Below, piece after piece: positions 13,342 to 40,134 of a DNA stretch of 64,000 nucleotides. The notes beneath the pieces are model-generated. The model was not told where the DNA came from. It was given only the letters and a program-made list of their open reading frames with translations, and ran no database searches. The translations under genes were made by a program, and so were the position numbers. The DNA lies in the NCBI RefSeq assembly GCF_013294015.1, contig NZ_JABSNO010000014.1, forward strand, positions 1 to 64,000, written 5' to 3'. Numbering within the stretch: the stretch's first letter is position 1; each line of letters begins with the position of its first letter. The stretch comes from Frigoriflavimonas asaccharolytica. GTDB taxonomy: Bacteria; Bacteroidota; Bacteroidia; Flavobacteriales; Weeksellaceae.

Positions 13342-13427
13342 TTACAAGAAAATTTAATCATTAATTTTTGTCAGCATTAGAATGTAGCATCGTCTATTAT
13401 TGTAAATTGTGGCAAAATTTAAAAAAA

Positions 13428-13763
13428 ATGGAAAAAACATATTACAATCCCGCAGATCTTAAAAAATTTGGGAAAATAGTAGAATGGGGAAAAGAACTAG
13501 GCGAGAAGTTTTTCGAATATTACGGAAAAGTTTTTGAAGAAGGAAAACTAAGCGCACGAGAAAAATCGTTAATAGCATTAGCTGTTTCTCACACCGTTCA
13601 ATGTCCGTATTGTATAGATGCTTATACTGGAGATGGCTTGCAAAGAGGCATCACCAAAGAAGAAATGATGGAAGCCGTGCATGTTGCAGCTGCAATTAGA
13701 GGTGGTGCAACATTAGTGCATGGTGTTCAAATGATGAATAAGTACGAAAAATTATCAATGTAG
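13428..13763 (+). CDS. AhpD/carboxymuconolactone decarboxylase-like protein (ArsS-associated peroxidase type)
   Basis: The protein is 111 residues from ATG 13428 (MEKTYYNPADLKKFG), chosen because the family begins with this short tyrosine-rich lead; the upstream open frame to 13368 has no similarity. The all-helical AhpD fold carries the redox pair Cys59-x-x-Cys62 in VQCPYCIDAYTGDG. This subfamily is recurrently encoded next to ArsS-type radical SAM enzymes and is named for that association. Its reaction is not established; thiol-disulfide or peroxidase chemistry is inferred from CxxC. It begins the ArsS operon, 14 bp ahead of arsS. Confidence 0.85.
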   Translation: MEKTYYNPADLKKFGKIVEWGKELGEKFFEYYGKVFEEGKLSAREKSLIALAVSHTVQCPYCIDAYTGDGLQRGITKEEMMEAVHVAAAIRGGATLVHGVQMMNKYEKLSM

Positions 13764-13777
13764 TTTTAAATTAAAAT

Positions 13778-14833
13778 ATGCTCTTAAAATCTTTACAAGC
13801 AAAAAGTAGCGCACTCTCACAAACTCAAAAACAACTTCAAATTCTTTCCGGAGGTGTATTTCAAGATGGAAGTTTGCCCACTTTTGCAAAAAAAATAGAA
13901 CAATCCAATCAATTTCCGCTTCGTTCAAAAAAAATTGAGATTCTACAATTAAATGTTGGCTATATGTGCAACCAAGTTTGCGCGCATTGCCACGTAGATG
14001 CAGGACCAGATCGAAAGGAAATCATGACGGTAGAAACGATGCAACAATGTTTGGATGTCATCAAAAATACGGGAGTTCACACGCTAGATTTAACAGGTGG
14101 TGCGCCAGAAATGAATCCAAATTTCCGCTGGTTTGTAGAAGAGGCTTCAAAAATTGGTGTGAAAGATTTTATCGTTCGGTCTAATCTTACCATTATTTTG
14201 GCCAATAAAAAATACCACGATTTACCAGAATTTTTTGCAAAACACAACATTCACGTTATTTCTTCTCTACCCTATTACAAAAGAGAAAAAACCGATAAAC
14301 AACGTGGTGATGGAGTTTTTGATAAATCTATAAAAGCTTTGCAAATGCTAAATGCAGTTGGATACGGAATGCCAGGAAGTTCTTTGAAACTAGATTTGGT
14401 CTACAATCCATCTGGTGCTTTTTTGCCAACCGATCAAGAGGCTTTGCAAAATGATTTTAAAATTGCTTTGAAAGAAGATTTTAATATAAATTTCCATCAA
14501 TTATTTGCCATTACCAATTTGCCAATCAGTAGATTTTTGGATTATTTGATAAAATCTGAAAACTACGAAGACTATATGTATGCCTTGGTTGAAGCCTTCA
14601 ATCCGAAAGCAGTGCAAAATGTGATGTGCACCAATACCATTTCCGTAAGTTATGATGGTTGGTTGTACGATTGCGATTTCAATCAGATGTTGGATTTAAA
14701 AATTGCAGTATCCGAAAACCATATTTCGCAATTTAACGAAGAAATATTGACGGATAGAAATATTTTAATTTCTCAACATTGCTATGGTTGCACAGCAGGA
14801 GCAGGAAGCAGTTGCCAAGGAACGGTAGCCTAA
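13778..14833 (+). CDS. arsS: Radical SAM protein of the ArsS family (arsenosugar biosynthesis type)
   Basis: This is a 351-residue radical SAM enzyme. The [4Fe-4S] cluster triad is Cys64-x3-Cys68-x2-Cys71 in GYMCNQVCAHCHVDAGP, followed by the LDLTGGAPEMNP segment that replaces the usual GGEP motif. The C-terminal Cys-rich domain begins near VMCTNTISVSYDGWLYDCD and ends HCYGCTAGAGSSC (Cys335, 338, 346). In some relatives one of these positions is selenocysteine, but here all are TGC/TGT cysteine codons. Characterised ArsS transfers a 5'-deoxyadenosyl group to a methylated arsenical. No ArsM methyltransferase lies in the window, so the true substrate is open. The stop is followed at once by the DUF2064 gene. 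Confidence 0.88.
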   Translation: MLLKSLQAKSSALSQTQKQLQILSGGVFQDGSLPTFAKKIEQSNQFPLRSKKIEILQLNVGYMCNQVCAHCHVDAGPDRKEIMTVETMQQCLDVIKNTGVHTLDLTGGAPEMNPNFRWFVEEASKIGVKDFIVRSNLTIILANKKYHDLPEFFAKHNIHVISSLPYYKREKTDKQRGDGVFDKSIKALQMLNAVGYGMPGSSLKLDLVYNPSGAFLPTDQEALQNDFKIALKEDFNINFHQLFAITNLPISRFLDYLIKSENYEDYMYALVEAFNPKAVQNVMCTNTISVSYDGWLYDCDFNQMLDLKIAVSENHISQFNEEILTDRNILISQHCYGCTAGAGSSCQGTVA

Positions 14834-14834
14834 A

Positions 14835-15518
14835 ATGATGAATGTTTCAAAAACAGCCATATTAATTTTTGCAAATTCTGCTAAATATGAAGCGTCTAAA
14901 AAACGATTCTATAAAGCAGAACTTTTGTTTGATGAATTAAATGCAAGTATTGAAAACAAAGTACAACAGACCAAAATCCCTTATTTCATCATTACTGAAA
15001 AGGAGCAAATTGGGACAAAATTTGGCCAACGTTTTTCCAATGCTATTCAATCTATTTTTGATAAAGGTTATGATTCCATCATCACTTTGGGGAATGATAC
15101 ACCACACATTCAACCTAAAGATATTATTGAGGCCTACCAAAATTTAGCTTCAAATAAAACCACTATTGGAGCATCTCATGATGGCGGATTTTATCTTTTA
15201 GGAATTTCGAAAACAAATTTTGACCAATTAAATTTTCAAGATTTACCTTGGCAAACAAGTTCTTTATTTGGGACAATTACCAAGAATTTTTTAGCTAAAA
15301 ACATTCAATTTTCTAGATTAAAATCTCTGATTGATATTGATAATTTACGTGACGCCGAAAAAGTTTTACACCATTCTCATTTCATTTCAAAAGTTTTAAA
15401 ATTAATTTTAATCAGTGTTTTTTATATTGATTCTAAGATTAATTTTCATCTGTTTAGTTTTAAAAATGATATCTACCGATTGTATTATTACAACAAAGGT
15501 TCGCCTTGTTATAATTAA
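14835..15518 (+). CDS. DUF2064/TIGR04282-like nucleotidyl/glycosyltransferase, divergent
   Basis: This 227-residue GT-A-fold protein is related to the family annotated as arsenosugar biosynthesis glycosyltransferase. It keeps the central IITLGNDTPHI (metal/nucleotide) and the HDGGFYLLGI motifs and the WQTSSLFGTITKN stretch. The N-terminal loop, which in the canonical copy at 39042 reads PELGKVKTRLA, is replaced here by SAKYEASKKRF, so nucleotide handling may differ. The last about 35 residues form a divergent hydrophobic/Tyr-rich tail. The start ATG 14835 lies one base after the arsS stop, indicating tight co-expression. Whether it is a nucleotidyltransferase or a glycosyltransferase is not known. 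Confidence 0.75.
   Translation: MMNVSKTAILIFANSAKYEASKKRFYKAELLFDELNASIENKVQQTKIPYFIITEKEQIGTKFGQRFSNAIQSIFDKGYDSIITLGNDTPHIQPKDIIEAYQNLASNKTTIGASHDGGFYLLGISKTNFDQLNFQDLPWQTSSLFGTITKNFLAKNIQFSRLKSLIDIDNLRDAEKVLHHSHFISKVLKLILISVFYIDSKINFHLFSFKNDIYRLYYYNKGSPCYN
15488..15513 (+). other. Intercistronic hairpin with TTCG loop
   Basis: TTACAACAAAGG pairs with CCTTGTTATAA around a TTCG loop, with one bulged A and one mismatch. It sits over the end of the DUF2064 gene and about 50 bp before susC. There is no T run, so it is more likely an RNA-processing or stability element or partial attenuator than a simple terminator. Confidence 0.4.
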
Positions 15519-15563: not shown

Positions 15564-18500
15564 ATGAGGCATATATACTTATATTTTATGCTATTTTTTA
15601 GCATCATCGCATTTTCTCAAAATACAATTACCGGAAAAATAACAAGCAATTACAATGGTTCCCCTATTTCATTGGTGCAGATTTCTTCTTCTTCCAAAAT
15701 GATAACAACATCTGGTAATGATGGCAATTATAGCATCATCATAAATTCAGATTCAGAAGAACTATCGTTTACTGCTCTTGGATATAAATCGCAAATAATT
15801 AAAATTAAAAATAGATCTACCATAAATGTAATATTAGAAGATAACACCGGAAATATTGGCGAAGTAGTAATTACCGCATTAGGTATAAAACGCGAGGCAA
15901 AAGCTTTGGGATATGCCGTTCAAACTTTGAAAGCAGAAGATCTTGCAGAAGTGAAAACGGTGAATTTTTTAGATAATCTATCCGGAAAAGTTGCAGGAAT
16001 TTCTGTAACGCAAGGTGCAACAGGTGTTGGTTCTTCCTCAAAAATTACCATACGTGGAGAATCTTCTTTTTCTAACAACAATCCTTTGTTTGTAGTAGAT
16101 GGAACACCTATTAATAATCAAACTGTATTTAATTTCACCAATGAAGCAGCAGCAGGTTTTCAAGAAATAGACTATGGAAACGGTGCGATGGAAGTGAATG
16201 CAGATGATATAGAATCTGTTTCCGTTTTGAAAGGACCAAGTGCAGCAGCTCTGTATGGAACGAGAGCTTCCAACGGCGTAATTGTAATAAACACAAAAAG
16301 CGGAAATGAGAGGAAAGGCTTTCAAATAAGTTTTAATTCTACATTTTTGGTGGAAACCGCATTTAAATTACCAAAATTTCAAAATGAATACGGACAAGGA
16401 AATTCTGGTAAATTTGCTTTTGTAGATGGTTTAGGTGGTGGTACAAATGATAACATTTCTTATTCTTGGGGACCAAAATTAAACGCTGGGAATTTCACCA
16501 CACAATTTGATGGTCAGGTACAATTGTCGGATGGAAGTTTTGTGCGAGGTGGCGATACTTCATTATATTCAGGTTTGCCGATTAGACCTACAGAATTAAT
16601 TTCTCATCCAGATAATATCAAAAATTTCTACAATACTGGAACCACCGCCATCAATAATATTGCAATTTCTAATGGTTTTGATAAAGGAGATTACAGACTT
16701 TCCATCACAGATTTAAGGAGTGAATCTATCATTCCGGGAGTAAATTTAAATAGACAAACTATTGCTACAAAATTCAATTTTAAACCTTCTGATTATACCA
16801 CAATTTCTACTTCCATTAATTATGTAAATTCTAATAGCGACAATAGACCCTCGAACGGATATGGAAGTGAAAACGTGAATTATTCTCTTGTAGCGTGGGG
16901 ACCAAGATCCTTAAATATTGATCATTTAAAAAATTATTGGCAACCAGGATTAGAAAAAATTCAACAATATTCTTTTAATTATACTTTTTTTGATAATCCT
17001 TACTTTATACTGTATGAAAACAGAAATTCATTTAATAGAGATAGATTGTTTGGAAACATTCAATTAAAACAAAAAATTACAGAAGATTTAAGTTTTTCAA
17101 TCCGTTCTGGAATGGACTATAGCAATGAAACTAGAGAAATGAGACGAAATTTCAGCAGCAATCGTTTCAAAAATGGCGCTTATGCAGAGCACGATGTTTT
17201 TTATAGAGAAATAAACACAGATTTTCTATTAAATTACACGAAAAACATTAGAAATTTCTCTTTTGATGTTTCTGTAGGTGGCAATAGATTAGATCAAAAC
17301 GCTTCTACCAAACAGATTCAAACGGTAAATTTAGCGCAGCCAGGCATTTTTAATTTAAATAATGCGGCGTCACCAATACAGGCTTTTCAATTTGAAAGTA
17401 AAAAGCGCATCAATTCTTTGTACGCGCTTGCAAAGTTTGGTTTCAAAGATTATTTATATGTAGATATTACCGCAAGAAATGATTGGTCTAGTGCTTTGGC
17501 AACGCCTTTTTCTGTAGATGGAACCTCATTTTTGTATCCTTCTGTTTCTAGTAGTTTCATTGTTTCTAATTTATTTTCTCTACCAAAAGCCATTTCTTTT
17601 GCAAAACTGCGGGCAAGTGTAGCACAAGTGGGAAATGATACCAATCCTTACCAAACATCGGGTGCATTTGTATCGCAAATTCCATTTGATAGTCAACCCA
17701 CTTTTACGGCGCAAAATTTCATTCCAAATGCTCAATTGAAACCAGAGCAAACCACATCTTACGAGTTTGGTGCAGATTTGAGATTTTTCAACAATAGATT
17801 AAATTTTGATTTCACCTATTTTAATTCTAATACGGTAGATCAAATTATTTCGCTGCCCATCGCTATTTCTTCCGGATATGATCAGCAAGTTGTGAACGGT
17901 GGAAAAGTAAATGCTCAAGGAATTGAAATAATTCTAGGAATTACACCTATAAAAACACAAAATTTCAATTGGAATACCACCTTTAATTTTGCACAGAGCA
18001 AATCTGTAATTAAAGATTTACCCCAAAATGGCGGAAGATTAACGCTTGCGTACAGTAGAATTTATGATAGCGCCAACCAAACTGTTTGGATTCAAGTGGA
18101 AGAAGGTGGCAGAATAGGAGATTTGTATGGAACCGGATATTTAAAAAATGAAAATGGAGATTTCATATTAACAAGTGATGGAAATTATATTGCCGATAAT
18201 GTTTTGAAAAAATTGGGCAATTACAATCCAGATTTCACTTTGGGTTGGAGCAATAATTTTAAATATAAAAACTGGAATTTAAGCCTTTTGTTTGATTGGA
18301 GACAAGGCGGCGAAATAGTTTCTAGAACCAGCGCTCTGGGAAATGTAGGCGGACAATTAGCCGAAACTTCTTACAGACCAGAAGCAGGAATTGTTGCGCA
18401 AGGTGTTGTAAATACGGGAACTGCAACCAATCCTATCTATGTGCAAAATACAAAAGCAATTTCTGCAGAAAGCTATTATCGCCAATATTACGATAGAAAT

Positions 18501-18776
18501 CAGGAAGAAAATAATACGTATGATGCTTCATTTTTAAAATTTCGCCAGTTTTCTTTAGGCTATTCTTTCCCAATAAAGGAAGGGTTTTTTGGCTTAAAAA
18601 AAGGCGGAGATTTTTCTATTGCCTTGGTGGGAAACAATTTATTTGTGTTTTCTAAAGTTCCACATATAGATCCAGAGCAATTGGCGGTGCAAGGAAATGG
18701 CTTTGTGAGCGGTGTAGAAGATATAAGTTATGCTACTTCTAGAAGTATAGGTTTAAAATTGGGATTAAATTTTTAA
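15564..18776 (+). CDS. SusC/RagA-type TonB-dependent outer-membrane transporter
   Basis: The protein has 1070 residues. A signal peptide ending about residue 18 is followed by a carboxypeptidase-regulatory-like domain (ITGKITSNYNGSPISLVQ). The plug domain has the family strings GEVVITALGIKREAKALGY, KITIRGESSF, PLFVVDGTPI and VSVLKGPSAAALYGTRASNG, and a long beta-barrel ends in an aromatic-tipped GLKLGLNF. SusC proteins import ligands above porin size together with their SusD lid, using TonB energy. No degradative glycosidase follows. Instead the pair is embedded in the ArsS operon, so a small glycoside, nucleoside or organo-element ligand is a plausible inference. It is 45 bp after the previous gene and 13 bp before susD. 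Confidence 0.92.
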   Translation: MRHIYLYFMLFFSIIAFSQNTITGKITSNYNGSPISLVQISSSSKMITTSGNDGNYSIIINSDSEELSFTALGYKSQIIKIKNRSTINVILEDNTGNIGEVVITALGIKREAKALGYAVQTLKAEDLAEVKTVNFLDNLSGKVAGISVTQGATGVGSSSKITIRGESSFSNNNPLFVVDGTPINNQTVFNFTNEAAAGFQEIDYGNGAMEVNADDIESVSVLKGPSAAALYGTRASNGVIVINTKSGNERKGFQISFNSTFLVETAFKLPKFQNEYGQGNSGKFAFVDGLGGGTNDNISYSWGPKLNAGNFTTQFDGQVQLSDGSFVRGGDTSLYSGLPIRPTELISHPDNIKNFYNTGTTAINNIAISNGFDKGDYRLSITDLRSESIIPGVNLNRQTIATKFNFKPSDYTTISTSINYVNSNSDNRPSNGYGSENVNYSLVAWGPRSLNIDHLKNYWQPGLEKIQQYSFNYTFFDNPYFILYENRNSFNRDRLFGNIQLKQKITEDLSFSIRSGMDYSNETREMRRNFSSNRFKNGAYAEHDVFYREINTDFLLNYTKNIRNFSFDVSVGGNRLDQNASTKQIQTVNLAQPGIFNLNNAASPIQAFQFESKKRINSLYALAKFGFKDYLYVDITARNDWSSALATPFSVDGTSFLYPSVSSSFIVSNLFSLPKAISFAKLRASVAQVGNDTNPYQTSGAFVSQIPFDSQPTFTAQNFIPNAQLKPEQTTSYEFGADLRFFNNRLNFDFTYFNSNTVDQIISLPIAISSGYDQQVVNGGKVNAQGIEIILGITPIKTQNFNWNTTFNFAQSKSVIKDLPQNGGRLTLAYSRIYDSANQTVWIQVEEGGRIGDLYGTGYLKNENGDFILTSDGNYIADNVLKKLGNYNPDFTLGWSNNFKYKNWNLSLLFDWRQGGEIVSRTSALGNVGGQLAETSYRPEAGIVAQGVVNTGTATNPIYVQNTKAISAESYYRQYYDRNQEENNTYDASFLKFRQFSLGYSFPIKEGFFGLKKGGDFSIALVGNNLFVFSKVPHIDPEQLAVQGNGFVSGVEDISYATSRSIGLKLGLNF

Positions 18777-18789
18777 AAAATTAGAAAAC

Positions 18790-20232
18790 ATGAAAAACTA
18801 CAATATCATATCAGTTTTTATATCATTCTTCATTTTACTTAGTTGTACTCGCGATTTTGAAAACATCAATACCAATCCGAATGCGCCCAATTCTGTAGAA
18901 CCGAGTTTTCTGTTGCGCCAAATAATTTATAATTATGGCGAAAATATGAGCTATGAAGGTTTTGTAGCCGGAGATTTATTGTCTCAACACAGAACGGCTT
19001 TAGATTTTAATTTATTTGATAGACATGCTCTAAATTCCCCACAATTAGGCGGAAATCCTTGGTCTATTTTTTATAAAAATTTAAGAGACAATGAAATTAT
19101 TTTAAACCAATCTAGAAATTCTACGGCATACAAAGTCTATGAAGGACCCGCATTGATAATGAAAGCATATATGGCTGCAGGATTGACAGATTTATTTGGA
19201 GATGTGCCTTATTATCAAGCATTTAATGGCGTAAACGGAACAGTGACACCAGTTTATGATAAGCAAGAAGACATTTATCTAAAAGCAGGTGGAATTTTAG
19301 ATAATATAGATAAAGGAATTCTGGCCATGCAAAATTATAGCGGCTCTATTGCTCTGCAAGGTGATATTATGTACAACGGAAATCTACAATCTTGGATTCG
19401 GTTTGCAAAATCTCTTAAAATAAAATTATTGCTAAGAATTTCTTCTAAAATTAATGTTGCATCGCAATTGCAAGCTATTTATACAGAAGGAAATTACATA
19501 AAACTAAATTCTCAAAATGCTATTTTTAATTTTACAAATACGGCACCCAATAGTTTCAGATTGGCGCAATTGAGAGTGGGAGATTTTAATAATTTTGTAC
19601 TTTCCAAAACGATGCAAGATATTTTGCTAAACTTAAATGACAGCAGAATAAATAAATTTTTCAGACCTTTTTCCAATTCAAATTCTGGCGCTTATAATGG
19701 TTTAATCAACGGGATTGATGCTTCTCAAACTTCTATTGTTTTGGCAAATTATTCTCTCGCTGGAACAAGTTTTAGAGAAGATACTTCCACTTTAGATGCC
19801 AATTTTCTTACAGCTTGGGAAGTTCAATTTGCTTTAGCAGAAGCAGCTCAAAAAGGTTTGATAACTGCCAATGCACAACAATTATATGAATCTGGAGTAA
19901 GTTTGGCTTTTCAATATTGGAACACGGCTTTGCCGACAAATTATTTATCCGGTGAAGCGTCTTTTAATAATATAAATTCTACACCTTTGAAGCAAATTAT
20001 CACCCAAAAATGGATTGCCAATATCATCAATGGATATGAAGGTTGGGTGGAATATAGAAGAACAGGTTTTCCAAATTTAAAGCCAGTTTCTGCCAGTTTA
20101 AATAATGGATTGATACCTGTAAGAATGCCCTATCCTACTGAAGAAGCCGCTTTGAATGGGCAAAATTACAACGCTGCTGCAGCAACTACCAATAACAATA
20201 GTATAAACTCACCAGTTTGGTGGAATCAATAA
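18790..20232 (+). CDS. SusD/RagB-type surface lipoprotein
   Basis: This 480-residue lipoprotein has its signal peptide ending at Cys19 in FILLSCTRDFE, followed by the short NINTNPNAPNSVEP lead common to SusD-like proteins of the second type. Helical TPR-like segments include SWIRFAKSLKIKLLLRISSK and ITQKWIANIINGYEGWVEYRRTGFPNL; the latter (C-terminal third) is a hallmark of the family. SusD forms the hinged lid of the SusC transporter on the cell surface and defines ligand capture. The gene is directly downstream of its susC partner and two bases ahead of the symporter gene. Confidence 0.9.
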   Translation: MKNYNIISVFISFFILLSCTRDFENINTNPNAPNSVEPSFLLRQIIYNYGENMSYEGFVAGDLLSQHRTALDFNLFDRHALNSPQLGGNPWSIFYKNLRDNEIILNQSRNSTAYKVYEGPALIMKAYMAAGLTDLFGDVPYYQAFNGVNGTVTPVYDKQEDIYLKAGGILDNIDKGILAMQNYSGSIALQGDIMYNGNLQSWIRFAKSLKIKLLLRISSKINVASQLQAIYTEGNYIKLNSQNAIFNFTNTAPNSFRLAQLRVGDFNNFVLSKTMQDILLNLNDSRINKFFRPFSNSNSGAYNGLINGIDASQTSIVLANYSLAGTSFREDTSTLDANFLTAWEVQFALAEAAQKGLITANAQQLYESGVSLAFQYWNTALPTNYLSGEASFNNINSTPLKQIITQKWIANIINGYEGWVEYRRTGFPNLKPVSASLNNGLIPVRMPYPTEEAALNGQNYNAAAATTNNNSINSPVWWNQ

Positions 20233-20233
20233 T

Positions 20234-21568
20234 ATGGAAATAATTTACTGGCAATGGTTGCTAATTATAGGTTCTAGTTTAGCATTTTTCTTTTTGTCGC
20301 CATTAGCGAAAACTACCGAGCAATTTTATAAAGCCATCCAAAACAACAAAGCACCTTCTGCAACTGTATTGACGGGAAGTTTAATCATCTCGTGGATTTT
20401 TGCAAAGAGCATTACCAATGCAGCCAATTTAGGACTAGAATTTGGAATTCTTGGTGGCATCGCGTATGCCGGATATTATTTTTCTTTTGCGGTAGCTGGT
20501 ATTTTAATTTACCAATTGCGCGTGAAAGGCAATTATAAAAGTATTCATGATTTTATCGTTTCAAAATTTGGCAAGCAAGCCATGTTTTTGTTTTCTTTAT
20601 TAATAGCCATTCGTTTGTTTAATGAAGTTTGGAGCAATACCATGGTTATCGGCACTTATTTCGGAGATTCTGGAACATCAGCTTATTATTGGGCAATTAT
20701 ATTATTTACCGTTCTCACTTTGGCCTACACTATAAAAGGTGGATTAAGCAGTTCTATATTCACAGATGTAATTCAAATGATTTTCTTTTCTGTGCTATTG
20801 TTAATTATTTTATTTAATATTTTCAGTTCAGAAAATTTTAAAGTTCAAGATATTTCACAATCAAGTGTTTGGAGTTTTGATTTGGGACTGAATCTTTTTT
20901 TCGCCGCCATTATTCAATCTTTAAGTTATCCTTTCCACGATCCTGTTCTCACGGATAGAGCATTTCTAAGTTCGCCAAAAGTAACTAGAAAAAGTTTTCT
21001 TTGGGCAAGTTTTTTGGGAGCAATTTGTATTATTTTGTTCAGTATTGTAGGCGTTTATGCAAAAGTAAACGGAATGCAAGGAGATGCAGCTTTTGAGGTT
21101 GGCAAAGCATTTGGAGTGATTATTTTATTGGTCATTAACTTCATCATGATAACCTCTGCAGCTTCTACTTTAGACTCTACCTTTTCTTCTTTTTCAAAAT
21201 TGGCTGCAATAGATTTAAAACTGGGAAAAACAGTAAAGTTTGGTAGAATATCAATGATAATAATAGCAATTTTGGGTACAATTCCAGTATTTTTGAATGC
21301 CGAAATTTTATCTGCTACCACAATTTCTGGAACAATGGTGATTGGTTTAACCCCAGTTTTTGTATTTTGGAATATGAAAGTTCCCAAAATAAGTTTTTAT
21401 TTAAGTGTGCTTTGTGGTTTGTTTTTCGGAATGCTCTTGCTTTTTAAAATATTTCCCGCAGAATTAATTTTCACAGAAGGGAAATATGCCGATTTATTAT
21501 GGATCAATTTCTGGGGAATTTTATGTTGTATAATTGTATTTATGATTCCAAAATGGATAAAAAATTAG
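20234..21568 (+). CDS. Sodium:solute symporter family (SSS) inner-membrane transporter
   Basis: This 444-residue protein has about 11-13 membrane helices. SSS-family traits include LTGSLIISWIFAKSITNAAN near residue 45, the YKSIHDFIVSKFGKQA cytoplasmic loop, YTIKGGLSSSIFTDVIQMI (about 165-185; the conserved GGL-x-x-S/A-x-x-T-D-x-x-Q motif) and SAASTLDSTFSSFSKLAAID (about 300), which includes the Na2-site serine/threonine region. It would move a solute across the inner membrane with sodium and so complete a SusCD outer-membrane route. The start ATG 20234 is one base after the susD stop, and the next gene begins inside its last codons. The substrate is unknown. Confidence 0.88.
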   Translation: MEIIYWQWLLIIGSSLAFFFLSPLAKTTEQFYKAIQNNKAPSATVLTGSLIISWIFAKSITNAANLGLEFGILGGIAYAGYYFSFAVAGILIYQLRVKGNYKSIHDFIVSKFGKQAMFLFSLLIAIRLFNEVWSNTMVIGTYFGDSGTSAYYWAIILFTVLTLAYTIKGGLSSSIFTDVIQMIFFSVLLLIILFNIFSSENFKVQDISQSSVWSFDLGLNLFFAAIIQSLSYPFHDPVLTDRAFLSSPKVTRKSFLWASFLGAICIILFSIVGVYAKVNGMQGDAAFEVGKAFGVIILLVINFIMITSAASTLDSTFSSFSKLAAIDLKLGKTVKFGRISMIIIAILGTIPVFLNAEILSATTISGTMVIGLTPVFVFWNMKVPKISFYLSVLCGLFFGMLLLFKIFPAELIFTEGKYADLLWINFWGILCCIIVFMIPKWIKN

Positions 21569-22404
21569 AAAATTTAGGTAAAATAGAAGGCAAAATATTG
21601 CTTTTTGGAGGTGTTTATAGCAATCTTCAAGCATTAGAAGCTTTGAAAACTGTGGCAGAAGAAGAAAATATTCTACCAGAACATTGCATTTGTACAGGAG
21701 ATATTGTGGGTTATTGTGCGCAACCAGAAGAAAGTATTCAGTTTTTTAAAAATTGGAAAGCAAAAGCAATAAGAGGAAATGTAGAAGAACAATTGATTGA
21801 AAACGCAGAAGATTGCGGCTGCGATTTTACCGAAGGTTCGCGCTGTGATATTTTATCTCAATTTTGGTATCCTTATGCTAAAAGCAAATTGTCTGAAAAT
21901 TCAATAAATTATTTAAAAACAATAGCCAATCATCTCACTTTTGAAATTGCTGGTAAAAAAGCAAGCGTTGTACATGGCGCGTATTCCAATATTTCAGAAT
22001 TTATTTTTAAATCTACCCATTGGTCTAAAAAAGAAGAAAATTTTGAACAAACAGAATCCCAAATCATAATCGCCGGACATTGTGGTTTGCCATTTTTAGA
22101 TGTAAAGGATCATAAATTTTGGATCAATCCTGGCGTAATTGGCATGCCTGCAAATGATGGAAAAACAGATGTTTGGTATGCTATAATGCAAGAAAAAGAT
22201 AACACCTTAGATATTGAATTTAAAAATTTAAAATACGATTTCAAATTAGCAAATAAACTCATGATTGAAAATAATTTACCTTCAGAATATGCAAAAACAT
22301 TAGTAACGGGAATTTGGAACAACATGGAAATCTTGCCAAATGAAGAAAAAAATTTACAAGGAAAAGAAATAGTATTTGACGCTATTAAAATTTCGAAAAA
22401 ATAA
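21553..22404 (+). CDS. Calcineurin-like metallophosphoesterase homologue with altered metal motifs
   Basis: The protein is 283 residues from ATG 21553, overlapping the symporter by 16 bp. The fold is that of YfcE/ApaH-like phosphoesterases: a first strand with SNLQALEAL, then CTGDIVGYCAQPEES, AIRGNVEEQL, VVHGAYSN and IIAGHCGLPF, followed by WINPGVIGMPANDG. Two metal-binding sites deviate from the family. Motif I, normally D-x-H-(G/S)-N, is FGGVYSN, lacking both Asp and His. The usual G-H-T-H is G-H-C-G. It may therefore bind one metal or none. Operon position suggests a part in processing a phosphorylated intermediate, either as a reduced-activity phosphatase or as a ligand-binding protein. 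Confidence 0.75.
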   Translation: MDKKLENLGKIEGKILLFGGVYSNLQALEALKTVAEEENILPEHCICTGDIVGYCAQPEESIQFFKNWKAKAIRGNVEEQLIENAEDCGCDFTEGSRCDILSQFWYPYAKSKLSENSINYLKTIANHLTFEIAGKKASVVHGAYSNISEFIFKSTHWSKKEENFEQTESQIIIAGHCGLPFLDVKDHKFWINPGVIGMPANDGKTDVWYAIMQEKDNTLDIEFKNLKYDFKLANKLMIENNLPSEYAKTLVTGIWNNMEILPNEEKNLQGKEIVFDAIKISKK

Positions 22405-22409
22405 AATAA

Positions 22410-23222
22410 ATGACAAAAGAAAAATTACAAACAACCGCAGATTTTTTAATTAAAAAAGGATTTGACAAGCCAGAAATTGGGATTGTACTCGGAACAGGAT
22501 TGGGCCAATTGGTGAATCATATTAAAATTGAAGTAGAAATTGATTATCAAGATATTCCAAATTTTCCGGTTTCTACGGTAGAATTTCACAGTGGTAAATT
22601 AATTTTTGGCACTTTAGAAAACAAAAAAGTAGTGGTATTACAAGGTAGATTTCATTTATACGAAGGCTATTCTTTGCAAGAAGTTACCTTTCCTATTTGG
22701 GTTTTGAATGCATTAGGAATAAAAAAATTATTTATTTCTAATGCAGCAGGAGCTATAAACCTCAATTTCAAGAAAGGAGATTTGATGTTGATAGAAGATC
22801 ACATCAATCTGCAAGGAGGTTCGCCTTTAGGTTTTGCGAATGTATCAGATTTTGGCGAAAGATTTACAGATATGTGCGAACCATATGATTTAGAATTGAG
22901 AAATTCTGCCATAGAAATTGCTAAAAATCAAAATATTACTTTACAAAAAGGAGTTTATGCTGCAGTTTTTGGTCCGCAATTAGAAACAAAAGCAGAATAC
23001 AGATATATAAAAATTATTGGTGCAGATGCAGTAGGAATGAGCACCGTTCCAGAAGTGATTGTAGCCAATCATTTAAAACTACCTGTTTTTGCAGTATCAG
23101 TTTTAACGGATGAATGCGATCCTGATGATCTAAAACCCGTAAACATTCCAGAAATAATTGCCATAGCTGGCGAAGCCGAACCAAAAATGATTACTTTATT
23201 TAAAGAATTGATAAAATATTAA
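22410..23222 (+). CDS. Purine nucleoside phosphorylase (trimeric PNP/MTAP family), 6-aminopurine-type base site
   Basis: This 270-residue phosphorylase cleaves a purine nucleoside with phosphate to the free base and ribose-1-phosphate. The phosphate loop GIVLGTGLG is at about 24-32, GRFHLYEGYS is at 79-88, and the purine-contacting Glu192 is in GPQLETKAEYR; GADAVGMSTVPEVIVA follows. The residue aligning with Asn243 of human PNP, which reads 6-oxopurines, is Asp234 in SVLTDECDPDD. This resembles the TDYD of methylthioadenosine phosphorylase. An Asp there is known to favour adenine-type bases. It ends the ArsS operon, 5 bp after the phosphoesterase-like gene, which suggests an adenosyl compound as substrate. 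Confidence 0.88.
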   Translation: MTKEKLQTTADFLIKKGFDKPEIGIVLGTGLGQLVNHIKIEVEIDYQDIPNFPVSTVEFHSGKLIFGTLENKKVVVLQGRFHLYEGYSLQEVTFPIWVLNALGIKKLFISNAAGAINLNFKKGDLMLIEDHINLQGGSPLGFANVSDFGERFTDMCEPYDLELRNSAIEIAKNQNITLQKGVYAAVFGPQLETKAEYRYIKIIGADAVGMSTVPEVIVANHLKLPVFAVSVLTDECDPDDLKPVNIPEIIAIAGEAEPKMITLFKELIKY

Positions 23223-31939: not shown

Positions 31940-33529
31940 TTATTTGTTGAGCAAATCAAGTAAATTAATATCGTTTCCTAATAAAATTTCATTAGAATTG
32001 ATTCTCCCCTCTTCTTTCCCATTCTCTAATTTTAAAACTCCTCGCGGACAAACTGCAGAGCAAACACCGCAACCAACGCAGGAAGAACGAACGATATTTT
32101 CGCCTTTTTGAGCGTAACTTCTTACATCAATTCCCATTTCACAATGCGTGGTACAATTTCCGCAAGAAATGCATTGTCCACCATTTGTGGTAATTCTAAA
32201 TTTTGAAAATAAACGTTGTTGCAACCCCAAAATTGCAGCCATCGGACAACCGAAACGGCACCAAACTCTGTTACCTAATATTGGATAAAATCCAACTCCC
32301 ACTACTCCACTAAACATAGAGCCAATCGCAAAACCATACCATGAACGTAGCGAATAGCTATCTAAAAATAATATATTTTGCTTATTTGAAAAGAAATTAA
32401 TTAAAAGGGAAATGATGATAATCGCAACCAAAGTGAGCATGGTATAAACTGCATCTTCATCCATATCTTTTCGCTTAAAAATATACAGCGCTCCAGTAAA
32501 AACAGTCAGGAAAATCACAATTCCATAGATAAATTGACTTCTTGTAATGATGCTTAAATCTGGATTATCAGAAAGGAAAGTGAAAACCACGGCAATAGTC
32601 ATTACAAAGGCAAAAACTAAAACCAAATGAATCATCCAACGTTCTATTTTCCAGGCAGTTTCTGTAGAACTAGAAAGGTGGCGAAAAGAATCTCCCGCAG
32701 TTTCAGCCAATCCACCACAACCGCAAACCCAAGAACAATACCATCTTTTACCATAGAAATAAGTGAGAATTGGGGAAATTATAAATATCATGGCGATGCC
32801 AAAAATCAACATAAATAGTCCCAAATTTCCACCATTGAGCATGCCTTTTAAATTCCAATCTTCGAAAAAATAGTAATTCAAAGGCCACATATTTTTGATG
32901 TCTTTCGAAAAATAAGGCAACTCTGGATTTAATTTGGTTAAAATTTCTGGAATTAAAAATGCAAAGCCCAATTGAAAAAATATCACCGAAATGGTACGAA
33001 CCAACTGATATTTATTATTCCTATACTTTAAAATGAATTTATAGCCCAAACCAAGAATTGCAACGGTATATAAAGTGCCATACAAAAACCATTGCGTTGC
33101 GGCATTTCCATTTAAAAAATAACTTAAAGGATCAAATAATGCTACAATTCCGGTGTTTGCATCTCCATTTTCCCCATAACCCAAATAAGCTGGAAACCAA
33201 TACAATACGACATAAAAAGCCGTTAATAATATTCCTATAATCCAAGCGATTGTTCCTCTATTCGTCAAGGAATTATGAAAAATGCCGTTGTTGGAAATTC
33301 CTGGCGGTTTGTTAAGATAAGTGCTTCTTGCGTAAATTACAATTCCGGCAAAGATGCTTGCAATCGAGATGGAAAGCCACAAGGTTTTATTCGGAAAATC
33401 GACATTAAAAAAGGCCAGCGTTAAAATAAATAAGCCCAAAAAACCAATACCCAAACCTAATTTTTGAAAGGTAGATAAATCATTATTTGCGTGAGCTGAA
33501 ACTGATAAATTTTGTGGAAGTTTGCTCAT
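31940..33529 (-). CDS. Polytopic 4Fe-4S membrane protein (NapH/CcoG/NosR-like)
   Basis: The protein is 529 residues with about 10-12 membrane helices. The cytosolic loops carry CSWVCGCGG, CRFGCPMAAILGLQQRL and two C-terminal ferredoxin cluster motifs, CISCGNCTTHC and CVGCGVCSAVCPRG. Proteins of this type pass electrons between quinol or a flavoprotein and membrane-bound acceptors. Its stop-start junction overlaps by one base with the upstream FAD oxidoreductase gene, so the two are probably an electron-transfer pair. Possible clients in the same run include the hydroxylase/desaturase-like protein at 37353. That link is inferred. Confidence 0.82.
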   Translation of the reverse strand: MSKLPQNLSVSAHANNDLSTFQKLGLGIGFLGLFILTLAFFNVDFPNKTLWLSISIASIFAGIVIYARSTYLNKPPGISNNGIFHNSLTNRGTIAWIIGILLTAFYVVLYWFPAYLGYGENGDANTGIVALFDPLSYFLNGNAATQWFLYGTLYTVAILGLGYKFILKYRNNKYQLVRTISVIFFQLGFAFLIPEILTKLNPELPYFSKDIKNMWPLNYYFFEDWNLKGMLNGGNLGLFMLIFGIAMIFIISPILTYFYGKRWYCSWVCGCGGLAETAGDSFRHLSSSTETAWKIERWMIHLVLVFAFVMTIAVVFTFLSDNPDLSIITRSQFIYGIVIFLTVFTGALYIFKRKDMDEDAVYTMLTLVAIIIISLLINFFSNKQNILFLDSYSLRSWYGFAIGSMFSGVVGVGFYPILGNRVWCRFGCPMAAILGLQQRLFSKFRITTNGGQCISCGNCTTHCEMGIDVRSYAQKGENIVRSSCVGCGVCSAVCPRGVLKLENGKEEGRINSNEILLGNDINLLDLLNK

Positions 33530-34824: not shown

Positions 34825-34862
34825 AGAATCTGAATTAATCTGTTAAGTTCTTAAAATGAAGT

Positions 34863-35639: not shown

Positions 35640-35687
35640 AATTTATTTTTATTAGATAGTATTACGTTTAAAAAGTAAAAAATTATT

Positions 35688-36380
35688 TTACTTGATGTTT
35701 TTTTTATAATAATTCAACAAACTTTCTGCAGAATGTCCTAATTTTTTTTTGATGTGAATGACTAAAAAATGGTATTGCAAACGCCAAACTCCATTTTCCC
35801 GATATCTTCTAGCGGAAGTAGTAATCGGCTTTTGTATAACAATAAATTGCTCTTTCAAATATAATCTTTTGCAAATTTCATTGTCTTCATAAATGGTATA
35901 ATCTTCATTAAAACCACCAATTTCATTAAATAAATCTTTGGCAACAAATAAAGATTGATCTCCACCTCTGCAAGATATGTGATTAAACCGTGTAAACCAC
36001 TGCGAAAGCAACAAAACTGGATGTGAATTATTAAATTTCATTCTAAAACAACCTGCTAAATTCCCTTTTTCAATTTCATTATTGATTAAAATATCGAAAT
36101 TTTTAGGTGGAATACTATCGCAATGTAGAAAGTATAAAATGTTTCCAGTTGCAGCTTTTGCGCCTACATTCATTTGTTTTGATCTCCCTTTTTCAGCAGA
36201 TAAAAATAGAACTTTTTGATGTTTTAAAACTTCTTTTTGAGAACCATCATCACTTCCACCATCTACCACAATTATTTCATAATCAATAGTTTGAGATAGA
36301 TTTTTTTCTAAATACAAAAGAAGTGAATTAATGGCATTCACTTCATTTAAAATAGGAATTATGATAGAAATTTTATTCAT
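35688..36380 (-). CDS. TIGR04283-type GT2 (arsenosugar biosynthesis glycosyltransferase family)
   Basis: This is a 230-residue GT2 with IIIPILNEVNAINSLLLYLE, VVDGGSDDGSQ, the LSAEKGRSKQMNVGAKAATG loop and a divergent metal site FLHCDSIPP in place of DxD, followed by GGFNEDYTIYEDNEICKRL. These features match the family originally called rSAM/selenodomain-associated transferase 2, which co-occurs with ArsS-type enzymes and with TIGR04282 proteins (here at 39042). It overlaps the DUF547 gene by 8 bp. It likely uses an activated sugar, but donor and acceptor are not known. Confidence 0.85.
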   Translation of the reverse strand: MNKISIIIPILNEVNAINSLLLYLEKNLSQTIDYEIIVVDGGSDDGSQKEVLKHQKVLFLSAEKGRSKQMNVGAKAATGNILYFLHCDSIPPKNFDILINNEIEKGNLAGCFRMKFNNSHPVLLLSQWFTRFNHISCRGGDQSLFVAKDLFNEIGGFNEDYTIYEDNEICKRLYLKEQFIVIQKPITTSARRYRENGVWRLQYHFLVIHIKKKLGHSAESLLNYYKKNIK

Positions 36381-37287
36381 TCAAAGCCCAATTGTACTCT
36401 TTATAATTTACTTTTGCATTGTTATCAATTTTCGTTGTGCTGTATTTATTTAAATAATCAATCACACTTCCTTTTGTTTTAAAATCGCCAGCAAACCAAT
36501 CGAAAATTTTTGAAATTTCTACTTTATCTTTTGCTATCGTATTCTTAGTTTTATCATTCACAAAAGATTTTGTGGCAGCGTTTAATTTACTCTCAACATT
36601 ATTTTCTGTAAAGGCTGAATTGGATAAATTCGGACAAGAAAAAGAAGCGCAAACAATGGCGAAGTGAATTCTTGGCTCATTCATTTTTCTTAAAATTTCA
36701 TGTTCTACTTCTTCTAAACTGTACTTTTTTGTACCCAACGTGAAAAATTTATTTCCCCAAGGATTTTTAATGTCTTTTATACTTTTTAAAGGATAATTAT
36801 CGATGATTAATTTTACAGTGTACGCATTGTACACATTGATCCAATAAGCTAAAACTGCATTTTTGGAATCAGATTTTGCAGGTAAATTATTTGATAAATT
36901 GCTTAAATAAGATTGTAGCGCTTTCTCATCTTTTTTGAAACCTTTGTAATTTACTTTTCCGCTTGGCGAAACATATTTTTGCAAAAGACTGTTCCACTGT
37001 TGATGATCCACTCCTTTCACTGCAGCTGCGACTTCTTCTTTTTTAAAAGTTTCAACGTTTTCTACAACTTCAGTTTTTTCAGTTGGTGTAACTTGTTTTA
37101 AATCTGTTGCAGCGACTTCATTTTCAATAGCGACAGGCAAATCCGGATCAGCTACTATTTCATTTTCAGCAATACTTGTTGTTTCCGTAGAACTGTAAGC
37201 AATATCTGGAATTTTTTCTTTTGAATCTTTGGTATTTCCACAATAAACAAGTGGTAAAAGCATTAAGGCAGCTATATATTTTCTCAT
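36373..37287 (-). CDS. DUF547 domain lipoprotein
   Basis: This 304-residue protein has a lipoprotein-like signal (LLPLVYCGNT, Cys16) and a low-complexity Glu/Val/Thr linker (residues 20-95). A DUF547 domain follows, with YWINVYNAYTVKLIIDNYPL, YSLEEVEHEILRKMN and HFAIVCASFSCPNLS containing the conserved C-x-x-x-S-C-P. It is exported, unlike the DUF547 protein at 25773. In many Bacteroidota this gene accompanies TIGR04283 and desaturase-like genes. A cysteine-based acyl- or peptidyl-transfer activity is possible but unproven. Confidence 0.82.
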   Translation of the reverse strand: MRKYIAALMLLPLVYCGNTKDSKEKIPDIAYSSTETTSIAENEIVADPDLPVAIENEVAATDLKQVTPTEKTEVVENVETFKKEEVAAAVKGVDHQQWNSLLQKYVSPSGKVNYKGFKKDEKALQSYLSNLSNNLPAKSDSKNAVLAYWINVYNAYTVKLIIDNYPLKSIKDIKNPWGNKFFTLGTKKYSLEEVEHEILRKMNEPRIHFAIVCASFSCPNLSNSAFTENNVESKLNAATKSFVNDKTKNTIAKDKVEISKIFDWFAGDFKTKGSVIDYLNKYSTTKIDNNAKVNYKEYNWALNE

Positions 37288-37352
37288 CTTACTTTTTTAA
37301 TATTATATACGAATAGTCGCAGGAATTCTATTTCCTTACAAATTTTAATCAA

Positions 37353-38225
37353 TTACTTTTTCAAAGGATAAATTTCCTGCTGAATAAAATCCTTTGGAAA
37401 TTCCTTTTCCCCATGAAAACCTAATTCTATATCTCTACCATCGGAAGGAATGTGGTTTGTTTTAAATAAATAATCCCATAAACTCAAGGAAATTCCGAAA
37501 TTGACACCATATTTATTGGGTAATTTTTTGCTGTGATGCCAAATGTGCATTTTCGGATTGTTGAATATGTATTTCAAAAATCCGTAATCCCAACCAAGAT
37601 TGGCGTGGTTTAAATGTCCAATGGCAATGGTGATAAAATGAACGATGAAAATCTCTTGTAAATTGGCGCCACCAATCAAGATTATTGGCAAATACAAAAC
37701 CGTTTTATAAACGATAGGTTCTAGCCAATTGTACCGGAAATGTGCCGCAAAACCCATTTCTTTTACACTGTGATGGGTTTTATGAATATTCCACAAAAAT
37801 GGAACACTATGCAAAAGCCGATGAACATTCCATTGGATGAAATCTACTACAATAAAAATGATGATAAGCGATAAATAAGTTGGTAATTTCGAAAGATCAA
37901 AGAGCTGAATAGAAACCAATTGTAAGCCGAATATATTGAGGAAATCATTTAACAATTGTTCTGTTACATTAGATAATGCAATCAGCAATATTAAATTAAG
38001 AATAAAAAAATTGAAAAATAGATAGCCTAAATCAAACCAAAAATCTTTTCTGAAAATTCTTTGGTTTTTCCGCCAAGGAAATAGAATTTCTAGAAGCCAA
38101 ACCACGAGTGAAATCGCGATTAATCCGTAGAAATAATTGTCTAATTTCCAATACAAAACCTCATCTATCAGATAATTAAAATAACCTGAATACGAGTTTT
38201 TTATAAGTTCTAAATAGTTTTCCAA
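37353..38225 (-). CDS. Fatty acid hydroxylase/sterol desaturase family membrane protein
   Basis: This 290-residue protein has about four membrane helices. The histidine clusters of the di-iron family are present: VHRLLHSVPFLWNIHKTHHS (HxxxH and HxxHH), HLNHANLGWDYG and KMHIWHHSKKLPNKYGVNFG. Family members hydroxylate or desaturate lipids using O2 and external electrons. Its neighbours suggest a lipid or glycolipid substrate, and the nearby FAD/4Fe-4S pair could be the electron source. It lies 14 bp after the outer-membrane protein gene. Confidence 0.88.
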   Translation of the reverse strand: MENYLELIKNSYSGYFNYLIDEVLYWKLDNYFYGLIAISLVVWLLEILFPWRKNQRIFRKDFWFDLGYLFFNFFILNLILLIALSNVTEQLLNDFLNIFGLQLVSIQLFDLSKLPTYLSLIIIFIVVDFIQWNVHRLLHSVPFLWNIHKTHHSVKEMGFAAHFRYNWLEPIVYKTVLYLPIILIGGANLQEIFIVHFITIAIGHLNHANLGWDYGFLKYIFNNPKMHIWHHSKKLPNKYGVNFGISLSLWDYLFKTNHIPSDGRDIELGFHGEKEFPKDFIQQEIYPLKK

Positions 38226-38239
38226 CTTTAATTTATGTT

Positions 38240-39052
38240 TTAAAATTTAGCGTAAACACCAAAATTAATTGTCGGGGCCAAAGGTGCATTATCTATACCT
38301 GTTGCGCCAATTACGCCCAAATTTGCTCCAAATTTATCTTTTTGAAATTCATAATTTCCCTTTATTCCGATAGCATTGTATGTTTGACGATCTAAATAAG
38401 ATGGCCATTGCGCAGTATCATTGATAAAAGCGTTTTCTTTGTTCACAACATTTTTGGTATCTAAAAGAAAAATTAAATGACCGTCTTTTATTATTTCATA
38501 CCCAACTTCTAGGCTCGCTTTAAAAAAATCTGAATAATCATTAGTCATATATCCGTAACCGATATTTCCGAAGTAATACCATTTATTTTTGCTAGAACCT
38601 ACCGTTACATAAGGTAAAAAAGTAGAAGCATTAAAACCTGTAGACAGACCAATATTTTCATCAATTTTAATAGAATTAGCTGAATAAATAGCACCTGTAC
38701 TAATTTTCCAAGTTTTATCAGAAATTTTATATTTCAAACCAACTGAAACATTTCCTAAACCAGAAATGCTTTCAGAATTGCTGCCATTTTTTACACTGAT
38801 AGATTTATAAGGAATCATCACAAGTGCTTCTAAATTTTTTGCAAGTCCGTATTCTGCATAAATCTGCGTGGTAATATCGCTTACATCTGCACCGATATTG
38901 ACTTCTGAACCATCATATTGAAAGGAATCGTAGAATAATCCAGTGACACCTACTTGCACAAAAGCTTTACCTTGATCTCTTGTCCACGGACTTTGAGCGC
39001 TGATAAATATAAATCCTAACAGGAATAAAGTAAGAGTAATTTTATTTTTCAT
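38240..39052 (-). CDS. Outer-membrane beta-barrel protein
   Basis: The protein is 270 residues with a signal peptide ending ...FISAQ (about residue 19). Alternating amphipathic strands follow (VFVQVGV-like, TTQIYAEYGLAKNLEALVMI, GNVSVGLKYKISDKTWKIST), and the C-terminal strand ends NFGVYAKF with the terminal Phe typical of Bam substrates. It resembles the phenol/MetA-type barrels of Bacteroidota. It overlaps the TIGR04282 gene by 11 bp, so it belongs to the same operon and may export or import the pathway's product. Confidence 0.75.
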   Translation of the reverse strand: MKNKITLTLFLLGFIFISAQSPWTRDQGKAFVQVGVTGLFYDSFQYDGSEVNIGADVSDITTQIYAEYGLAKNLEALVMIPYKSISVKNGSNSESISGLGNVSVGLKYKISDKTWKISTGAIYSANSIKIDENIGLSTGFNASTFLPYVTVGSSKNKWYYFGNIGYGYMTNDYSDFFKASLEVGYEIIKDGHLIFLLDTKNVVNKENAFINDTAQWPSYLDRQTYNAIGIKGNYEFQKDKFGANLGVIGATGIDNAPLAPTINFGVYAKF

Positions 39053-39653
39053 AAATTTTTATATTTTGATAATAATTGCTTTTTTCTAAATCTTCGAAGG
39101 TGTCGATGTCATTTAAAGATACTAAAAATTCTACGTATTGGTTTTTTAAATCTTTCAAAGTATCATCTAAAACGGTTTCTGTTCCCCAGTTTTTATGCTG
39201 AAAAATTTCTGGAATCACTTTTTTCAAACCTAATAAATAATATCCGCCATCTTCTGCCGGACCAATAACGACCTCACCATTTTCCAATTTCTCGAAAGCT
39301 TCGTCAACAATTTTCGCTTGCAAGTCAAATAAATCGCTTCCAACGATGATGCAGTTTTTGTAACCCTGATCAAACAATTCTTGAAAAGCATTTTGCATTC
39401 TTTCACCTAAATCTTTGCCCGATTGCAGTTTTTTTGAATAAATTTCATCTGACCAAATATCATTTATAATAATGTTTTGGTCATAAAAAACAAACTTATC
39501 ACCATCTAAATTTTGGGTTTCAGATTTTGTATGAAGCAATAATTCTTTGTAAATCTCTAAGGCTTTTTCATCACCAATGGTTTTAGCCAAACGGGTTTTC
39601 ACTTTTCCCAATTCAGGATTGCGGGTAAAAATTATCAGTGCATTATTTTTCAT
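39042..39653 (-). CDS. TIGR04282 (DUF2064) transferase, arsenosugar biosynthesis type
   Basis: This 203-residue GT-A-fold protein has the canonical nucleotide loop FTRNPELGKVKTRLAK (residues 9-24), IIVGSDLFDLQAK in place of the more usual S-D-x-P and the metal-site motif GPAEDGGYYLLGLKK. The loop resembles that of CofC/MobA-type nucleotidyltransferases. This suggests it could activate a sugar-1-phosphate to an NDP-sugar rather than transfer a sugar, although database names call it a glycosyltransferase. It overlaps both neighbours by 11 bp. A more divergent copy is in the ArsS operon at 14835. Confidence 0.88.
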   Translation of the reverse strand: MKNNALIIFTRNPELGKVKTRLAKTIGDEKALEIYKELLLHTKSETQNLDGDKFVFYDQNIIINDIWSDEIYSKKLQSGKDLGERMQNAFQELFDQGYKNCIIVGSDLFDLQAKIVDEAFEKLENGEVVIGPAEDGGYYLLGLKKVIPEIFQHKNWGTETVLDDTLKDLKNQYVEFLVSLNDIDTFEDLEKSNYYQNIKIYEK

Positions 39654-40134
39654 AAACCTTCTCTCCTTTTTTCAGATATTTGCTCCAATTCTTATCGAAA
39701 GTGTGAATTTTTTCAGTTTCTAAATTATCTTTATCAACTACTTTATTGCCTTTATTTTTCCACTCGAAAATACCGCCATATAGATTTTGTACGTTTTTAT
39801 AGCCCAATTTCTTCAATTTATCGCCAATGGTTTCACTTCTAATGCCGATAGAACAATAGACTACAATATTTTCATTTTTATTCGGGAAATCTTTTACAAA
39901 TTTTTTGCTGTCAAATTTATCATAACCGATATTTACAGCATTTTTTAGATGGCTAACATTAAATTCTTTTGGTTCTCTGGAATCTAAAAAAGTGTAATTT
40001 TTACCTTTTGCAATATCATCCACATAAATATAGGCCACCGTATTTTTGTTCATTTTTTTCAAAACTTGCGGAATTGTATTTTGCGAATAACAAAATATTG
40101 ATAAAAGCAGAAAAAATATAAGGCGAAATTTCAT
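39643..40134 (-). CDS. Secreted rhodanese-like protein
   Basis: This 163-residue protein has a signal peptide (MKFRLIFFLLLSIFCYSQ) and one rhodanese domain. The domain entry is FLDSREPKEFNVSHLKNAVN, and the active-site loop VVYCSIGIRSETI carries the presumed persulfide Cys with C-x-x-G-x-R-S. A C-terminal tail follows (KIHTFDKNWSKYLKKGEKVY). As a periplasmic protein it may handle sulfur or thiol groups or act as a binding module. It is first of a tightly overlapped run with the TIGR04282 gene. A start site region with AT-rich DNA precedes it. Confidence 0.85.
   Translation of the reverse strand: MKFRLIFFLLLSIFCYSQNTIPQVLKKMNKNTVAYIYVDDIAKGKNYTFLDSREPKEFNVSHLKNAVNIGYDKFDSKKFVKDFPNKNENIVVYCSIGIRSETIGDKLKKLGYKNVQNLYGGIFEWKNKGNKVVDKDNLETEKIHTFDKNWSKYLKKGEKVYEK

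Follow-up and report, generated by a model that had tools for sequence, protein, structure and literature searches.

A purine nucleoside phosphorylase-family protein as a candidate adenine-removing enzyme in an arsenosugar-type gene cluster of Frigoriflavimonas asaccharolytica

We analysed a 64,000-nucleotide stretch of the Frigoriflavimonas asaccharolytica genome (hereafter the window) that contains a gene of the purine nucleoside phosphorylase (PNP) family. The arsenosugar-type cluster in the window is split in two (Table 1): the PNP gene ends a run of plus-strand genes that includes ArsS, and minus-strand genes at 35688-40134 form the second part. Genes from ArsS to the PNP stand head to tail, with successive gaps of 1, 45, 13, 1, -13 and 5 bases, so a single operon from ArsS through the PNP is plausible. 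The initial annotation had the PNP closing this operon, of which we saw no sign: msrA follows 82 bases downstream on the same strand, and the scan listed no terminator-like site between the two. A promoter and terminator scan returned 59 and 9 sites against shuffled means of 51.6 and 6.9, that is, near chance.

The minus-strand genes run in the order rhodanese, TIGR04282, outer-membrane protein, fatty acid hydroxylase, DUF547 and TIGR04283, which is the order of a related locus (L176) minus the PNP. FAD and Fe-S proteins on the same strand also belong to this part of the split cluster, which with them covers 31940-40134. The plus-strand set of TonB-dependent receptor, SusD-like lipoprotein, symporter-like protein and metallophosphoesterase (15564-22404) recurs beside ArsS or the PNP in eight of the loci fetched (L066, L076, L081, L082, L156, L172, L176 and L177), seven of them with ArsS; the set could possibly serve to import a compound that carries arsenic or phosphate.

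Table 1. Genes of the window discussed in the text, with family scores.
Feature	Position	Strand	Evidence or context
TIGR04169 arsenosugar-associated AhpD/CMD-like protein	13422..13763	+	194 bits, cut-off 120
ArsS, radical SAM enzyme of arsenosugar biosynthesis	13778..14833	+	TIGR04167 443 bits, cut-off 300
Second DUF2064 protein	14835..15518	+	Directly 3' of ArsS; under TIGR04282 cut-off
TonB-dependent receptor (SusC-like)	15564..18776	+	Plug and beta-barrel Pfam matches
SusD-like lipoprotein	18790..20232	+	PF12771, 294 bits
Sodium/solute symporter-like membrane protein	20234..21568	+	Weak matches, below cut-offs
Calcineurin-like metallophosphoesterase	21556..22404	+	PF12850 42.8 bits, cut-off 27
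Class-I PNP (Glu192, Asp234, Ile246), proposed phosphorylase of 5'-arsinoyl nucleoside	22410..23222	+	
TIGR04283 family glycosyltransferase	35688..36380	-	220 bits, cut-off 182
DUF547 protein	36373..37287	-	Same position in relatives
Fatty acid hydroxylase (sterol-desaturase-like)	37353..38225	-	Same position in some relatives
TIGR04282 protein, proposed nucleotidyltransferase	39042..39653	-	217 bits, cut-off 134
Rhodanese-like protein	39643..40134	-	Adjoins TIGR04282 in relatives

The PNP gene is an open reading frame for 270 residues whose product belongs to the low-molecular-mass PNP family by profile score (NF006054, 345 bits, cut-off 218). It also exceeds the TIGR01700 purine nucleoside phosphorylase cut-off (303 against 293 bits), and NCBIfam classifies it as inosine- and guanosine-specific. 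A methylthioadenosine phosphorylase (MTAP) identity was ruled out by family score, TIGR01694 giving 92 bits against a cut-off of 275. Its nearest solved structures, by sequence and predicted fold, are low-molecular-mass PNPs; a structure search with the predicted model confirmed the PNP fold and nothing further. Three residues are central here: Glu192, which is the retained equivalent of Glu201, Asp234 and Ile246. As the initial annotation stated, Asp234 lies in the motif SVLTDECDPDD. In the solved PNPs 8swu and 3la8 the residue aligned with it is Asn.

That annotation went on to treat Asp234 as the mark of an adenine-type enzyme, and named as a check whether the residue tracks with adjacent ArsS across Bacteroidota. 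By the annotation's own check the residue argument fails. From 296 sampled Bacteroidota genomes we fetched the 30 loci that matched TIGR01697 best; Asp was present in 26, and 22 of these came from ArsS-negative genomes (no ArsS over cut-off). We rejected it as an adenine marker. Asn occupied the column in five sequences (loci L038, L045, L053, L060 and L062), one locus (L060) having both an Asp and an Asn PNP. The second, ordinary PNP of the window genome (L001) likewise has Asp (ISIITDVGG) and retains the Glu201 equivalent. By alignment, Asp is likewise the residue of this column in three solved structures, 4lna, 8swt and 4m1e. One of them, 8swt, shows the Bacteroides fragilis PNP with the inosine analogue Immucillin H. 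Since Asp is the usual state in these PNPs, it does not single out the window protein. The reported effect of the substitution stands: changing Asn to Asp is described as raising the adenosine catalytic efficiency of human PNP about 4,000-fold (PMC6128611), and as letting the Kluyveromyces lactis enzyme use both 6-oxo- and 6-aminopurines (PMC5074518). Mutants of this kind gain adenosine activity, so Asp permits adenine without proving a preference for it.

Residue 246 is more informative. It begins the last helix of the predicted model and aligns with His257 of human PNP, which is reported to hydrogen-bond the 5'-OH (PMC12648331). The same column is Val233 in human MTAP, in an alignment of sequence fragments that match PDB entries exactly, and by alignment the window protein resembles MTAP in both sites, having Asp for the base and an aliphatic residue for the 5' position. 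When 143 PNPs (from L001, L034-L203 and the window) were aligned, 107 sequences combined Asp with Ile, Val or Leu at 246, and 36 had His; columns 55, 59, 115, 118, 142, 232, 236 and 249 also differ between the classes. In a quick maximum-likelihood tree of 83 of the aligned PNPs, the state of residue 246 changes twice, and the window protein groups with L104, L066 and L076 (SH-aLRT 99). Its closest relatives, the best 80 loci listed, are aliphatic throughout (Ile 66, Val 14) and also keep Glu192 and Asp234. Judged from these alignments, Ile246 is a better class marker than Asp234, and we take the Asp234/Ile246 pair as a putative sign of a 5'-modified adenosine substrate. The replacement of His by Ile speaks against a plain nucleoside, and so against the inosine and guanosine specificity of the family label. 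Counting against a special meaning, three loci from other Bacteroidota that lack ArsS (L059, L060 and L063) also hold PNPs with an aliphatic residue 246. In the Spirosoma and Planctomyces PNPs (4lna and 4m1e), Asp goes together with an aliphatic side chain where human PNP has His257, a hint that 5'-modified substrates may be used there too.

The genes around this PNP class point to arsenic. We scanned contigs with 11 ArsS-linked PNPs as queries and kept the best 80 loci listed, a set biased towards ArsS-linked PNPs; all are flavobacterial by title except one titled Bacteroidia bacterium. In this set the gene preceding the PNP is TIGR04282-like in 75 of 80 loci, and the gene following it belongs to the ArsM family in 54. 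Within 10 kb of the PNP, ArsM is found at 55 loci, ArsS at 19, either at 57 and neither at 23, the ArsM label being based on NF038099 (557 bits, cut-off 400) for one cluster member and six more genomes. Adjacency to ArsM, ArsS or TIGR04282 is therefore conserved in many species. Loci of family f63 (L193 and L203) have the PNP without TIGR04282.

Viewed from ArsS, the association was seen in the order alone among the stretches fetched. We took 40 of the 121 ArsS-bearing genomes in the phylum sample, namely every one from the same order (13, our own excluded), every one from the same class (7) and 20 of the remaining 100, and fetched stretches of 19.9 kb (two were shorter). A homologue of the window PNP lay inside the fetched stretch in 10 of the 13 same-order genomes, and elsewhere in the genome in the remaining three (G130, G134 and G234). 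Outside the order, 0 of 27 fetched stretches contained one, and family recurrence at those loci revealed no common partner gene in its place. One of these 27 loci, L083, has ArsM between TIGR04282 and TIGR04283 and lacks a PNP; adenine removal may fall to a different enzyme in that case.

Co-occurrence agrees with the neighbourhoods. Among 158 genomes of the order, ArsS (called at E up to 1e-60) was present in 13, including the window genome, and all 13 carried a class-I PNP as checked by residue, compared with at least 14 of the 145 ArsS-negative genomes (Fisher P = 5e-12, kinship ignored). The class-I count is a minimum, as one genome (G326) gave a partial match only and the typing of lower-identity matches in families f56 and f59 covered six of them, all His. 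Eight of the 14 ArsS-negative class-I genomes lie outside the family of most ArsS genomes, several carry the class-I PNP without TIGR04282, and in the eight searched with NF038099 no ArsM scored over the cut-off. Of the 61 loci in the best 80 listed that lack a nearby ArsS, 50 were submitted to a genome-wide search and 49 were searched: 43 have ArsS elsewhere, bringing ArsS to 62 of the 68 genomes examined from this set, and six have neither ArsS nor ArsM over cut-off despite a class-I PNP. The link inferred by the initial annotation between the phosphorylase and ArsS is thus upheld, in that most close relatives have the class beside ArsS or ArsM and that, in the order as a whole, it goes together with ArsS. 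Co-presence is not strict, and since class-I PNPs also occur in ArsS-negative genomes, we regard the link as strong and not exclusive.

This persistence without ArsS agrees with a role as a general 5'-deoxyadenosine or methylthioadenosine phosphorylase, which would dispose of the by-products that radical SAM and other SAM enzymes release, its adjacency to ArsS being a matter of convenience or shared regulation. The MTAP-like pair of Asp234 and an aliphatic residue 246 would suit such an enzyme, as would the small complement of PF01048 proteins in the window genome: only three, namely this PNP, the His-type PNP and a 284-residue protein, with MTA nucleosidase judged by family score alone. We nevertheless consider this role unlikely, because most ArsS-negative Flavobacteriales examined lack the class yet have radical SAM enzymes, and because its constant neighbour is the arsenosugar-labelled TIGR04282, next to ArsM, and no salvage gene. 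PF01048 proteins of 200-207 residues were seen in some ArsS-negative relatives.

The same exceptions bear on a further alternative, in which TIGR04282, the PNP and TIGR04283 make a non-arsenic ribosyl product from some other 5'-deoxyadenosyl adduct and the arsenic genes joined later. TIGR04282 and the PNP are indeed paired without ArsS or ArsM in five genomes (G182, G369, G355, G307 and G317) and in six further genomes among the best 80 loci listed. Such genomes are a minority and those bearing ArsS or ArsM dominate the close relatives, which makes this origin very improbable.

A simpler possibility is that the protein is an ordinary inosine/guanosine PNP that sits in the cluster by chance, as its score over the TIGR01700 cut-off and its retained Glu192 would allow. 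We looked for other purine phosphorylases in the window genome and 13 further ArsS-bearing genomes of the order and found an additional PNP in 12 of these 14, of His type in four (G000, G084, G218 and G289) and DeoD in eight (G029, G053, G103, G130, G134, G198, G226 and G234). Bulk purine salvage in these 12 would therefore be independent of the class-I gene, and the idea that it is the sole purine phosphorylase of ArsS genomes was set aside. In the two others (G088 and G118), no other PNP was seen, which favours an ordinary role there. Together with the loss of the 5'-OH histidine in all of the best 80 relatives listed and the conserved gene order with ArsM and TIGR04282, the additional enzymes make a chance association decidedly unlikely.

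The most constant neighbour of the PNP is a glycosyltransferase by NCBIfam name (TIGR04282), and its predicted structure (pLDDT 94.9) suggests something else. In a Foldseek search, of which we considered the best 50 of 297 matches (E up to 0.001), the top match was 3cgx, titled putative nucleotide-diphospho-sugar transferase, followed by the CofC-type 3-phosphoglycerate guanylyltransferase 7p97, the probable nucleotidyltransferase 2i5e, Rv2983, IspD, KdsB, TarI and GlmU; the glycosyltransferase ArnC came at rank 43. On this model the protein folds like nucleotidyltransferases of the CofC/IspD type, and we propose that it would make an NDP-sugar. A K[ST]RL motif was present in 101 of 108 TIGR04282-like proteins and in 0 of 13 other DUF2064 copies; the DUF2064 protein directly after ArsS is without it. 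A phosphorylase yields a sugar-1-phosphate and a nucleotidyltransferase consumes one, so the pairing of the PNP with TIGR04282 would be explained.

Taking these lines together, an intact, conserved phosphorylase is, by sequence and gene context, part of the arsenosugar cluster, and it probably strips adenine from an arsenic-carrying nucleoside. ArsS is described as the adenosylating enzyme of arsenosugar synthesis (PMC12159101). In the route that we propose, ArsS would join the 5'-deoxyadenosyl group of SAM to methylated arsenic; the PNP, with phosphate, would convert the ArsS product to adenine and 5-deoxy-5-arsinoyl-ribose-1-phosphate (arsenoribose-1-phosphate); TIGR04282, with an NTP, would turn this into NDP-arsenoribose; and TIGR04283 would transfer arsenoribose to an acceptor, giving an arsenosugar. 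We put a probability of roughly 0.6 on the central claim, that the protein is a homologue of trimeric PNPs specialised for 5'-modified adenosine and acts between ArsS and TIGR04282/TIGR04283 in arsenosugar synthesis. Its substrate, product, place in the order of steps and the activities are what we infer from sequence class, neighbourhood, co-occurrence with ArsS and the predicted TIGR04282 fold. The full activated-sugar route, with a dedicated phosphorylase after ArsS, TIGR04282 as a nucleotidyltransferase rather than a glycosyltransferase giving NDP-arsenoribose, and TIGR04283 as the transferase, is more tentative, and we rate it somewhat below even odds. If it is true, NDP-arsenoribose would be a nucleotide sugar carrying arsenic.

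The supply of methylated arsenic counts against the pathway as drawn. No ArsM scored over the cut-off in the window genome, which is 99.7% complete by tool estimate (best NF038099 match 19.5 bits against 400; NF008823 below cut-off). ArsS and the PNP occur without a recognised ArsM also in G418. A genome-wide ArsM search for 21 of the 23 relatives that lack both genes near the PNP added seven such genomes among the 15 with ArsS, the other 8 having ArsM. Our guesses for the window genome are that another methyltransferase serves, or that methylated arsenic is taken up, perhaps through the TonB/SusD/symporter set.

Among natural arsenic compounds, arsenosugars are widespread. Methylation in their synthesis is explained by ArsM and adenosylation by ArsS. 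For adenine removal, no paper in the literature searched names an enzyme; one may already have been published. With its conserved TIGR04282-PNP-ArsM order, the cluster offers candidates by name, and the second half of the pathway becomes open to tests in vitro.

Compared with the ArsM-ArsS arsenosugar pathway, the cluster has the same families by NCBIfam name and score (TIGR04167, NF038099, TIGR04169, TIGR04282 and TIGR04283); it differs in its phosphorylase, as none is named for the pathway among the NCBIfam matches seen, and in the window genome lacking a recognised ArsM. With low-molecular-mass PNPs (TIGR01700/NF006054; 4lna, 8swt, 4m1e and human PNP) the window protein shares the fold, most active-site residues and the Glu201 equivalent, and it differs from them in the company of ArsS, ArsM and TIGR04282 genes and in Ile at the His257 column, where 4lna and 4m1e resemble it by alignment in having Asp with an aliphatic residue. 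Human MTAP is alike in its base and 5' sites, again by alignment, whereas the window protein falls far under the MTAP family cut-off and has Glu192 where MTAP has Ser. The closest parallel in logic is the synthesis of the hopanoid side chain, in which the radical SAM enzyme HpnH adds a 5'-deoxyadenosyl group and HpnG, of the phosphorylase family, removes adenine. HpnH matches ArsS weakly (33.6 bits) and the substrate is different, but the proposed ArsS and PNP steps would, by this analogy, follow the same two-step plan.
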